Positions 1-7,553 of a stretch of DNA of 64,000 nucleotides are shown here, in pieces. Numbering within the stretch: position 1 is the first letter of the stretch; every line of letters begins with the position of its first letter. This stretch comes from Streptomyces atroolivaceus (GTDB taxonomy: Bacteria > Actinomycetota > Actinomycetes > Streptomycetales > Streptomycetaceae), in the NCBI RefSeq assembly GCF_000717025.1, contig NZ_JNXG01000002.1:434001-498000 (forward strand). Reading direction: 5' to 3'. Position numbers and translations under genes: made by a program. The notes under the pieces were generated by a model that saw only the letters and a program-made list of their open reading frames with translations, searched no databases and had not been told where the DNA came from.

Positions 1-188
1 TCCTGGGTGCGGACGAAGTAGTAAGGGCCGTGACCGCCTGCTCCACCTACCCGCTCCGGCGCGAACAATTCGCGAATCAGGGGCGCGAACGTGTCGTTGT
101 ATTTTGAACCAACTGGCTGCGGGATGGTGGCAAACAAGTGCACGAATGAAACCCCCGAGATTTCGGCCGGCGCCAGACGGGCCGTCAC
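1..188 (-). CDS. Partial N-terminus of a possible thiopeptide cyclase / SpaB_C-like protein
   Basis: The frame is open on the minus strand and runs off the left edge, so only the N-terminus is visible. It reads through FVHLFATIP and ends near YYFVRTQ. The segment YYFVR resembles the FF(I/L)R(Y/K) stretch near the N-terminus of thiopeptide-type SpaB_C-like proteins, the group that includes glutamate-elimination proteins and [4+2] pyridine synthases. An elimination protein is already present at 3436-4395, so a cyclase would fit, but that is inference from context. The GTG at 188 is chosen because third-position GC rises downstream of it. A GTG at 260 is in frame, but the extra codons are AT-rich and include a TTA. 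No clear ribosome site precedes either start. The gene diverges from the precursor gene. Confidence 0.4.
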   Translation of the reverse strand, partial: MTARLAPAEISGVSFVHLFATIPQPVGSKYNDTFAPLIRELFAPERVGGAGGHGPYYFVRTQ

Positions 189-245
189 GTGATCTTGTAA
201 TCGACCGTAACTCAGAGAGATGAGAAGAAGGAACCCCGGCTCCAG

Positions 246-261
246 TGTGATCTGCGTCACT
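246..261. promoter_or_regulatory. Crp-like binding site upstream of the precursor gene
   Basis: The inverted repeat TGTGA-N6-TCACT lies here, and 247-260 fits GTG-N6-GNCAC, the motif reported for Streptomyces Crp. It is centred about 55 bp before the predicted transcript start of the precursor and sits between the divergent left-edge gene and the precursor. A Crp role is inferred from the motif alone. A 14-bp degenerate motif can occur by chance. Confidence 0.4.
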
Positions 262-272
262 CCGGAAACTGC

Positions 273-302
273 TTGCGTTGTGATCGTCCGAATGCCTAGA
301 TT
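273..302 (+). promoter_or_regulatory. Predicted promoter of the thiopeptide precursor gene
   Basis: TTGCGT at 273-278 and TAGATT at 297-302 are separated by 18 bp, a plausible sigma-70/HrdB-type promoter. Transcription would start near 309. A strong ribosome site (GAAAGGGGG, about 316-324) follows, about 9 nt before the ATG at 334. Confidence 0.5.
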
Positions 303-333
303 CGAATCACATTGACGAAAGGGGGTGTAATCA

Positions 334-477
334 ATGGAGCAGCAGATCGAACTCGATGTGCTCGAGATTTCGGACCTCATTGCAGGTGCCGGGGAGAACG
401 ATGACCTGGCGCAGGTGATGGCCGCCTCGTGCACGACCACCAGTGTTTCGACGAGTTCTTCGTCGTCCTCGTCCTGA
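334..477 (+). CDS. berA: Berninamycin-type thiopeptide precursor peptide
   Basis: This 47-codon gene encodes an acidic leader of about 31 residues (starts MEQQIELDVLEISDLIAG, ends QVMAA) and the 16-residue core SCTTTSVSTSSSSSSS. Thiopeptide leaders typically carry an LDVxELxDL-like recognition stretch, seen here around residues 7-16. From memory the core matches that of berninamycin: Cys2 would give the thiazole, Thr/Ser the (methyl)oxazoles and dehydroamino acids, and Val7 the hydroxyvaline. Ser1 and Ser13 would give a 35-atom pyridine macrocycle. The start is fixed by a strong ribosome site and by the leader pattern. The gene is followed by a hairpin at 502-531 and then by dehydratase genes. 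The exact product is inferred: closely related thiopeptides share similar cores. Confidence 0.92.
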   Translation: MEQQIELDVLEISDLIAGAGENDDLAQVMAASCTTTSVSTSSSSSSS

Positions 478-501
478 ATCTAGGGACCGGGAAACAGTTG
501 A

Positions 502-531
502 GCCACCGTCGGGGTGTTCCTCGGCGGTGGC
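502..531 (+). terminator. Hairpin between precursor and dehydratase genes (attenuator or processing site)
   Basis: The arms GCCACCGTCG (502-511) and CGGCGGTGGC (522-531) can form a 10-bp stem with one G-T pair and a 10-nt loop, starting 25 nt after the precursor stop. There is no T-run, so it may be a partial terminator or an mRNA-stabilising hairpin. Either would raise precursor mRNA relative to enzyme mRNA. Confidence 0.6.
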
Positions 532-5718: not shown

Positions 5719-5780
5719 GGTCTTCTCCGCGGGTAGTCCAGGGAAATCTCCTTACGGACTCCATTCAAGCGGAAGATGAT

Positions 5781-5791
5781 CCACATCGTGG
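5781..5791. promoter_or_regulatory. Repeated motif CCACATCGTGG, P450 side
   Basis: This 11-bp sequence has inverted arms CCAC/GTGG around ATC. It starts 63 bp upstream of the P450 start codon. An identical copy lies at 5979-5989 on the other side of the same intergenic region. A shared operator for a cluster regulator is a reasonable guess, but no regulator gene is visible in the window. Confidence 0.4.
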
Positions 5792-5978
5792 CGTTATCGG
5801 TGAATGAGGCCGAACTCACGTGGACCGCAGGGAGGAAAGTCGGCCGCCTTCCCGGCATGGCCCGTCCCGTGCTTTCGGTGGGAGGGGTCGGTACAGTGCG
5901 ACATTGCAGTGATCGCGTAATCCGGAATGACCCCTTCCGCGTGGGGACGCGTCGATAGTACGTTGGATTTCATGTGCT

Positions 5979-5989
5979 CCACATCGTGG
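5979..5989. promoter_or_regulatory. Repeated motif CCACATCGTGG, amide-protein side
   Basis: This is an exact copy of the motif at 5781-5791. Here it extends to CTCCAC-ATC-GTGGAG at 5977-5991. It lies 55 bp upstream of the start at 6044. The near-symmetrical placement before two divergent genes suggests a common operator. The longer arms here could instead form a small mRNA hairpin. Confidence 0.4.
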
Positions 5990-6043
5990 AGAGTTCGCTT
6001 GCGCCGTCGAAGTCACAGTGTGTGCCGAGGGGGAGTTGGAGCT

Positions 6044-6388
6044 ATGTACCTTTCGATCGTCATGTGGGACCTGAAGAAGTCGGAAGCCACGGTGGAGAGC
6101 CTCAGGGAATACCTGCGGGACTATGCCGTGGACGCCTACTCCGCGCTGGACGGAATGCGGCTCAAGGCGTGGTTCTCCGATTCCGCGCGTCAGCTGTGGG
6201 GTGCGGTCTATCTGTGGGACAGCCCCGAGCAGATGCCCGGCCTGTACAAAGTCAGTCGCGTGATCGATCTCATCGGGTATCCGCCGACTTCGGTCGGTGG
6301 TTTCACGCTCGAGGCGACCGCCGAAGGGAAGAGCGTTCACGAGACACTGGCCGGCCTGGGGATCGCCCTGGAGGGCGGAACGCAGTAA
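6044..6388 (+). CDS. Small thiopeptide-cluster protein, possible C-terminal amide-forming (NosA-like)
   Basis: The 114-residue protein starts [20 protein letters not shown] and looks like a compact alpha/beta protein, perhaps a dimeric alpha/beta-barrel (ABM/YdhR-like) fold. It has no signal peptide or membrane segment. In nosiheptide biosynthesis the small protein NosA converts a C-terminal dehydroalanine extension into the terminal amide by enamide dealkylation. Berninamycin also ends in an amide and its core has extra serines. A NosA-type role is therefore inferred from size and context, not from a motif. The ATG at 6044 follows GGGGGAG (6030-6036). Confidence 0.55.
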
Positions 6389-6749
6389 GGGCAGGCGTGC
6401 GACCGGATGGGCGGGAGGTTTGCCGGGCCGGTCGGTTCGAGGGGCGGTCGAGGGCCGGAGCCGCGCGGGTGGCTTCGCCGCTCCGGCTGGCGGCCGGGTG
6501 TGGAGTGCCGCGCGGCGCCGGTGTCGCCCGCGCCGGGCATCACCGTGCTCGCGGAGGGTTCAGGTGTGTCGGACCGGCGCTTTCGCGTGTGTTCGGCACC
6601 GTCCGGTGGGCCGGGTGCTGTGCGCGGGCCTCGAGCTCCCGGGCGGGCGCGGTGCGCCGGCCCTCCCCGCCCGGACACGCGTATTCCGCACCGCTTCACG
6701 AAGATCATTCGGTGAAGGAGGCGGGGGCGCTCGTGCTAACGTCGTGATC
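6389..6749 (+). other. Non-coding spacer before the rRNA methyltransferase, with candidate promoter
   Basis: This GC-rich stretch contains no convincing gene. Near its end AAGGAGG (6715-6721) is too far from the start codon to be a normal ribosome site. TAACGT at 6737-6742 could be a -10 element placing the transcript start at or next to the GTG at 6750, which would make the message leaderless. No good -35 is seen. Confidence 0.35.
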
Positions 6750-7553
6750 GTGGCCAGCCTTGACACTATTACCGAACGCTCTGATTCTGCCGTACAACGC
6801 ATCATCGATGTGACAAAGCATTCGAGGTCCGTTGTCCGCACGGTGCTGATCGAGGACATCGAGCCTCTTCTGCAGAGCATCCGTGCCGGAGTGGAATTCA
6901 TCGAGATCTACGGACTCGACACCGTGCCTGTTCCGGACAGTCTGCTCGCCGAATGTGAACGGCGCAGAATTCCGGTCCGGCTGCTCGCCGCTTCGGTCGC
7001 CAATCAGGTCTTCAAGACCGAGAAGAAGCCCAAGGTATTCGGTATCGCCAAGGTCCCGCGGCCTCGTCGCCTGTCGGACCTGTCCGACATGACCGGTGAC
7101 CTCATCCTGCTCGACGGAGTGAAGATCGTCGGCAATATCGGAGCCATCGTGCGGACCTCGTTCGCGCTCGGGGCCTCGGGAATCGTGCTCGTGGACAGCG
7201 ATCTCGGCAGTATTGCGGACCGCCGTCTGATCAGGGCGAGCCGGGGCTATGTGTTCTCCCTTCCCATCGTTCTCGCGTCCCGGGCCGAGGCGCTCCAGTA
7301 CTTCCAGGACAATGCGATGCGCCCGGTGGTGTTCGAGGCCGACGGGGATCTCGGCGTCGCTGATCTCGACGGTATGGACGAGCGACTTGTGCTCATGTTC
7401 GGCAGCGAGAGGATCGGCCCGTCGGGCGAGTTCTCCGACATCGCCGCCAAGTCGGTCTCCATTCCGATGAATCCCGCGGCCGAGTCCCTCAACGTATCGG
7501 TGTCGGCCGGAATCGCGCTGCACGCGAGGGCCCGCCGTAACCTCTCCCGGTAG
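6750..7553 (+). CDS. tsr: 23S rRNA (adenosine-2'-O)-methyltransferase, thiopeptide self-resistance
   Basis: The 267-residue SPOUT-family protein closely resembles the thiostrepton-resistance methyltransferase of S. azureus, which methylates A1067 of 23S rRNA and blocks thiopeptide binding at the L11 site. Visible motifs are [18 protein letters not shown] (cofactor knot), [14 protein letters not shown], and [20 protein letters not shown]. The start [21 protein letters not shown] aligns with the N-terminus of Tsr, which supports the GTG at 6750. A GTG at 6744 would add two residues. It is the last recognisable gene of the thiopeptide cluster and gives the producer immunity. Confidence 0.93.

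Follow-up and report, generated by a model that had tools for sequence, protein, structure and literature searches.

The berninamycin gene cluster, berA-J, was reportedly described in Streptomyces bernensis by Malcolmson et al. in 2013. Its order in S. bernensis and in strain Tü 2108 is given by a published gene table as LmbE, berJ, berI, berH, berC, berB, berA, berD, berG2, berG1, berE2, berE1, tuf, fusA, rpsG, rpsL (PMC9290621), where the S. bernensis accessions appear as AGN11661-AGN11675 and KC894738. The core peptide of S. terrae SKN60 equals the berninamycin core, the strain yields a mass of 1146 Da, and 1146 is given for SKN60 and for recombinant berninamycin (PMC10495126). Geninthiocins and berninamycins are one methyl group on an oxazole apart, and Ser1 and Ser13 have been suggested as the ring-forming residues, with 35 ring atoms (PMC6306032). 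Here we compare these systems with a locus of Streptomyces atroolivaceus (genome G000, 8.2 Mb in 105 contigs), read from a window of 64,000 nucleotides (G000:C2:434001-498000) and from the 17 kb to its left (locus L009, in which a position equals the window position plus 17001). We are close to certain that positions 1-7553 of the window belong to a complete gene cluster for the ribosome-blocking antibiotic berninamycin, of which they form the right half; the cluster and its architecture are of an already known kind.

The cluster, its precursor and the predicted product

The 11 ber genes, their families and order, the core sequence and the insertion site can be read directly from the DNA. From BerE1 to BerJ the genes, berA-J, span ~12.9 kb between tuf and a PIG-L/LmbE-type gene. 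The open reading frame at 334-477 (47 aa) encodes MEQQIELDVLEISDLIAGAGENDDLAQVMAA and then the core SCTTTSVSTSSSSSSS, and its product scores 61.2 bits against the NCBIfam precursor family NF033401 (thiazolyl_BerA; cut-off 37.5). This precursor match is not attributable to chance, because only 5 of the 392 genomes sampled from the genus, G000 among them, have a match over the family's cut-off, against 0 of 14 control genomes. Profile searches, together with comparison to counterparts in related clusters, returned the complete thiopeptide-class set, consisting of precursor, YcaO cyclodehydratase, SagB-type dehydrogenase, split LanB and pyridine synthase, and all ber genes are intact open frames with full-length conservation in relatives. 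The genes are as follows, in window numbering, with negative positions lying to the left of the window:

about -5308 to -4607, minus strand: berE1, matching no family in Pfam or NCBIfam
about -4610 to -2982, minus strand: berE2, with the TIGR03882 leader-binding part and Pfam nitroreductase PF00881 both over cut-off
-2967 to -2329, minus strand: berG1, TIGR03882 E 2e-8, 34.6 bits (cut-off 36.9)
-2332 to -986, minus strand: berG2, YcaO protein, PF02624 E 1.2e-64, SagD family over cut-off
about -939 to 143 (L009:16062-17144), minus strand: berD, thiopeptide pyridine synthase ([4+2] cyclase), its 5' end at 1-143 in the window
144 to 333: berD-berA intergenic stretch between divergent genes, with a likely ribosome-binding site, AAAGGGGGTG, ahead of berA
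334 to 477, plus strand: berA, precursor, with leader 334-426 (31 aa) and core 427-474
801 to 3458, plus strand: berB, LanB N-terminal type dehydratase, predicted to act by glutamylation, PF04738 E 4.4e-22
3349 to 4395, plus strand: open reading frame of berC (true start uncertain, probably within it), LanB C-terminal type, predicted to eliminate glutamate, PF14028 E 7.4e-33, TIGR03891 over cut-off
4516 to 5718, minus strand: berH, cytochrome P450, putative Val7 hydroxylase, PF00067 E 3.1e-28
6044 to 6388, plus strand: berI, NosA/NocA-type, predicted to form the C-terminal amide, NosA (PDB 4ZA1) E 2.9e-28 over residues 1-109 of 114
6744 to 7553, start approximate, plus strand: berJ, NshR/TsnR 23S rRNA 2'-O-methyltransferase, putatively for self-resistance, NF000477 equivalog 462.6 bits (cut-off 425)

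An earlier note on this DNA had named a precursor with its core, split LanB genes, a P450, a small candidate amide-forming protein and a Tsr-type rRNA methyltransferase, and these are borne out by berA, berB and berC, berH, berI (where the NosA match supports what had been a guess) and berJ. It had also placed the YcaO and dehydrogenase genes left of position 1, the former within about 15 kb, and both are found there as berG2 and the SagB-type berE2. The extent it proposed, 1-7553, stands at its right border, where the next gene is already flank, and fails at the left, where the boundary lies ~5.3 kb outside the window; berD, at 1-143 on the minus strand, was missing from its list.

Across six named ber-like clusters, the counterparts of BerB, BerD and BerH are 77-83%, 62-75% and 82-88% identical to the window's proteins, respectively, and AAAGGGGGTG before berA is invariant in an alignment of 6 clusters. 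The predicted hydroxylase BerH carries the stretch FGHGIHQCIG, which we take to be the haem-ligand motif. BerI has no family in Pfam or NCBIfam searches, and the nearest solved relatives of BerJ are PDB 3NK6 (E 1.1e-101) and 3GYQ (E 6.2e-100). Several results weigh against the assignment. The general thiopeptide precursor family TIGR03892 is passed by the BerA protein, yet the six-frame genome search with it is silent. BerD, which has no family in a Pfam search and matches the solved TsrE at E 1.1e-5, stays under the cut-off of the TbtD/PbtD pyridine synthase family NF045556 (E 6.5e-18, 65 bits, cut-off 325). Slightly low scores are seen for BerG1 against TIGR03882, as listed, and for the SagB part of BerE2 (67.8 against a cut-off of 78.4 bits), and BerE1 has zero matches in both family collections. 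Moreover, no record named S. bernensis surfaced in the BerB scan or the BerD search for relatives, so the identity rests on SKN60 and the published gene table: the gene order equals the published ber order (PMC9290621) and the core is linked through SKN60, in line with the berninamycin-type cluster that had been proposed.

Which thiopeptide does the core specify? The window's core, SCTTTSVSTSSSSSSS, recurs unchanged in Streptomyces sp. Je 1-79 and in S. terrae SKN60, the core SCTTSSVSTSSSSSSS occurs in S. wuyuanensis, S. triculaminicus and S. griseocarneus, and the geninthiocin B strain Streptomyces sp. YIM 130001 has SCTTSSVSTSSSSSS (15 residues, Ser5). A geninthiocin-type cluster would use this machinery too and make a ring of equal size, the methyloxazole of berninamycin being replaced by a plain oxazole, and BerB, BerC, BerD, BerE1/E2, BerG1/G2, BerH and BerI are indeed common to the four Ser5-core clusters (L012-L015) at 62-88% identity; one of these, in S. 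wuyuanensis, also has berJ. However, residue 5 is Thr in the window and Ser in all four of those clusters, the formula predicted for the window has an extra CH2, and berJ is present in the window but absent from the published geninthiocin B cluster. A geninthiocin-type assignment was rejected on core residue 5 and has, in our judgement, next to no chance of being correct. The earlier note had named a better match to another thiopeptide as a test; the core matches berninamycin through the identical SKN60 core and departs from the nearest alternative, the geninthiocin-type relatives with their Ser5.

The formula model used to predict the product counts four azoles, one Thr left free and one hydroxyl; the leader departs as an amide, and the last Ser supplies the terminal amide. 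Its numbers of azoles and of free Thr were set from the formula of berninamycin A. For the window core the model predicts C51H51N15O15S, [M+H]+ 1146.35, which agrees with the mass 1146 of SKN60 and recombinant berninamycin, and the same settings reproduce the published geninthiocin B formula C47H46N14O14S. This agreement is a consistency check rather than an independent prediction.

The named families and the literature together suggest how each enzyme would act, which Ser and Thr would be modified and how, and that product and resistance would follow. BerA consists of a 31-residue leader and a 16-residue core. BerG2, the YcaO protein, would work with BerG1 and the leader-binding half of BerE2 to convert Cys2 and three Ser/Thr to azolines, which the SagB-type BerE1/BerE2 would oxidize to azoles. 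BerB, by glutamylation, and BerC, by elimination, would dehydrate the remaining Ser/Thr with one Thr spared, and BerD would then build the pyridine from the dehydroalanines (Dha) Dha1 and Dha13 by a formal [4+2] reaction, expelling the leader and closing a 35-atom ring. BerH may hydroxylate Val7, BerI may trim the final dehydroalanine, which derives from Ser16, so that a C-terminal amide remains, and BerJ would methylate 23S rRNA such that the producer's ribosomes stay unblocked at the L11 site. The count of 35 follows from a rule by which a Ser1-Ser10 ring has 26 atoms and each extra residue adds three. The Ser1/Ser13 pyridine and the 35-atom ring, both anticipated in the earlier note, agree with the published suggestion (PMC6306032).

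It might be argued that this strain makes no product, its cluster being silent or degenerate. Neither a regulator nor a transporter gene turned up among the ber genes, and a scan of positions 100-800, which covers one promoter type only, gave no sigma-70-like promoter; the scan also gave one terminator-like site against 0.5 expected. Yet all ber frames are intact and conserved over their full length in relatives, the promoter scan is limited as stated, and Tü 2108 produces although its ber gene table is likewise without a regulator (PMC9290621). A silent cluster is therefore unlikely, and the genome can be filed as that of a likely berninamycin producer and dereplicated before cultivation.

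The insertion site beside tuf

The cluster is bordered by the following genes:

stop at -5512, plus strand: tuf, then fusA, S7, S12 and the RNA polymerase beta' and beta genes, left of berE1
7638 to 9701, minus strand: LmbE/PIG-L-type gene, flank outside the cluster, PF02585 E 1.5e-11

For Tü 2108 the neighbouring translation genes have been proposed as linked to self-resistance, and the same work also calls berJ the most likely resistance gene (PMC9290621). Are tuf, fusA and the ribosomal genes then members of the cluster that provide target-based self-resistance? They adjoin the cluster in both the window genome and Tü 2108 (PMC9290621), and G000 has a second, divergent EF-Tu gene on contig C7. 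To set against this, a BerB search of 40 relatives besides G000 found a close BerB in one (G021), with weak LanB matches of 26-28% in G004 and G005, and the tuf region was fetched from five of the 40 that lack a close BerB (G004, G005, G006, G015 and G023), picked for their best LmbE-type match. In all five the order is fusA, tuf, LmbE-type gene, with a tuf-LmbE gap of 0.1-1.2 kb and Tuf 95-98% identical. Because tuf is followed by the LmbE-type gene in 5/5 ber-less relatives, ber is an insertion into a pre-existing gap and both genes are flanks, including the LmbE-type gene listed outermost in the published cluster table. This pattern argues against the self-resistance idea of PMC9290621: the cluster was inserted next to genes that already stood there, and BerJ is the better resistance gene. 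Membership of tuf and the ribosomal genes was rejected on the ber-less sites of relatives and is highly improbable. A housekeeping tuf beside such clusters marks a docking site, not a resistance copy, and berJ is the plain resistance candidate.

The LmbE-type gene comes directly after berJ in Je 1-79 and is not within the fetched stretch of S. wuyuanensis or YIM 130001. In S. triculaminicus the cluster lies next to genes for a RecQ-type helicase and for a protein with Mrr and TerD domains, and its neighbours in S. griseocarneus are similar, judged by first residues. The more divergent EF-Tu gene of G000 lies at G000:C7:233430-234593 and scores 569.5 bits, against 739 for the copy beside ber.

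Tsr-type methyltransferase genes away from the cluster

The fetched clusters of S. triculaminicus, S. griseocarneus and YIM 130001 lack berJ. For YIM 130001 it was reported that an rRNA methylase is absent in or beside the cluster, and another resistance mechanism, perhaps another target, was proposed (PMC6306032). A whole-genome search nevertheless found a full-length Tsr-type gene elsewhere in 3/3 berJ-less genomes, 63-68% identical to the window's BerJ:

G412:C13:54823-55617 (in L109): unlinked Tsr-type gene of YIM 130001
G411:C8:158493-159284 (in L110): unlinked Tsr-type gene of S. griseocarneus
G410:C1:251137-251928 (in L111): unlinked Tsr-type gene of S. triculaminicus

Within ~8 kb on either side of these genes, tblastn of all 11 ber proteins (E up to 1e-3) found no other ber protein. 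S. triculaminicus and S. griseocarneus are closely related by these proteins, and the three genomes therefore count as at most two independent cases. A tie of berJ to the berninamycin core was rejected, since S. wuyuanensis (L012) combines a Ser5 core with berJ.

Among the 392 sampled genomes, 10 pass the TsnR cut-off and 5 have a BerA-type precursor, and all five of the latter fall within the ten (chance 3e-9 if independent, uncorrected for shared descent). G021 and G258, which are berJ-less, both have TsnR, where 7 of the 389 genomes without linked berJ do (chance 2.8e-4). The five TsnR genomes without a BerA match count against a tight link between TsnR and thiopeptides: none has a strong BerB relative (G043 gave a 63-residue match, E 5e-4) and one (G361) has a general thiopeptide precursor match. 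The neighbourhood of the YIM 130001 gene is the same as in G002, where 5/5 other genes tested match at 80-96% identity and neither BerA nor BerB has a match; this may be a resistance gene of older standing, which allowed a cluster lacking berJ to be tolerated. The unlinked Tsr-type genes weaken the published idea of another geninthiocin B target. Searches of open-access literature, which takes in few subscription journals, returned titles and abstract openings in which such a gene in a geninthiocin producer goes unnamed; this is weak evidence that it is unreported so far.

A tree built from 18 TsnR sequences, in which 7 of the 15 inner forks are weak, groups the window's BerJ with its counterparts in SKN60, S. 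wuyuanensis and Je 1-79 (99/98). A lone gene of G219 joins this set next (99/100), and the unlinked genes of YIM 130001, S. triculaminicus and S. griseocarneus fall outside it. The G219 gene (L118:9215-10015, G219:C164) is 81% identical to BerJ and has an ArsR-type regulator gene ahead of it. Its locus is the counterpart of the S. triculaminicus cluster site (7/7 cluster neighbours matched, 51-87% identical), flanked by the Mrr-TerD gene and, at the opposite end, by an MFS gene and a TetR-like gene, the latter named by eye. Apart from BerJ, no convincing ber remnant was found beside it; a single BerG2 match (29.8%, E 9e-4) falls within the adjacent Mrr-TerD gene and appears to be a chance match. 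That the lone gene may be a relic of a lost cluster is thus a guess.

We tentatively hypothesize, as a proposal whose chances fall somewhat short of even, that biosynthesis of 35-atom thiopeptides and self-resistance travel separately and that berJ-less clusters persist only with an unlinked Tsr-type gene, such that geninthiocin B would hit the same 23S rRNA/L11 site as berninamycin; and, as part of the same proposal, that the locus from RecQ/Mrr-TerD to TetR-like/MFS, at which two species carry a ber-like cluster and a third carries a BerJ-like gene by itself, would be a second docking site where the cluster was lost and the resistance gene kept. Since ber-like clusters without their own resistance methyltransferase have one elsewhere (3/3 genomes), the doubt about the geninthiocin B target is directly testable.

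Comparison with known clusters

A BerB scan of named genomes, which possibly left out the window's own or very near records, gave 14 BerB-encoding loci. Six are close (77-83% identity), namely Je 1-79, S. wuyuanensis, S. triculaminicus, S. griseocarneus, YIM 130001 and SKN60, and the other eight are 44-52% identical. Genes A-J are complete beside tuf in Je 1-79 (L011), S. wuyuanensis (L012) and SKN60 (L016), and A-I lie beside tuf in YIM 130001 (L015). A BerD protein search returned one 99% identical protein (a cluster of 13 member sequences) and 56 further relatives; close kin of the window cluster therefore exist in other records. The berninamycin cluster has been called unique to SKN60 (PMC10495126); the same core and gene set occur in the window and Je 1-79, and Tü 2108 also has a berninamycin cluster (PMC9290621). 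Two genomes with ber-type precursors, G034 and G328, have a second thiopeptide-type precursor match on another contig (G034:C24:210252-210377 and G328:C4:370157-370282).

With the thiostrepton/nosiheptide resistance methyltransferases (3GYQ, 3NK6), BerJ aligns over nearly its whole length at E 6e-100 or better and differs by ordinary sequence divergence, nothing else. The clusters of S. triculaminicus JCM 4242 (L013) and S. griseocarneus JCM 4580 (L014) share genes A-I with the window, their proteins except BerA being 70-87% identical, but they have a Ser5 core, no berJ and an unlinked Tsr-type gene, and they adjoin the RecQ-type helicase gene, away from tuf, which is not within the 10 kb fetched on that side. 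The geninthiocin B cluster of YIM 130001 (L015, L068; PMC6306032) has the tuf site, genes A-I and the 35-atom ring in common with the window, whereas its core is of the Ser5 type and its Tsr-type gene lies elsewhere in the genome. For S. bernensis and Tü 2108 the published table (PMC9290621) gives 11 ber genes with the order and flanks of the window, and no difference is seen in a comparison by gene names and order alone. S. terrae SKN60 (L016; PMC10495126) shares the core, the A-J genes and the tuf site with the window; its 11 ber proteins are 66-96% identical to the window's, and its LmbE-type gene lies ~3 kb past berJ, whereas in the window it directly follows berJ.

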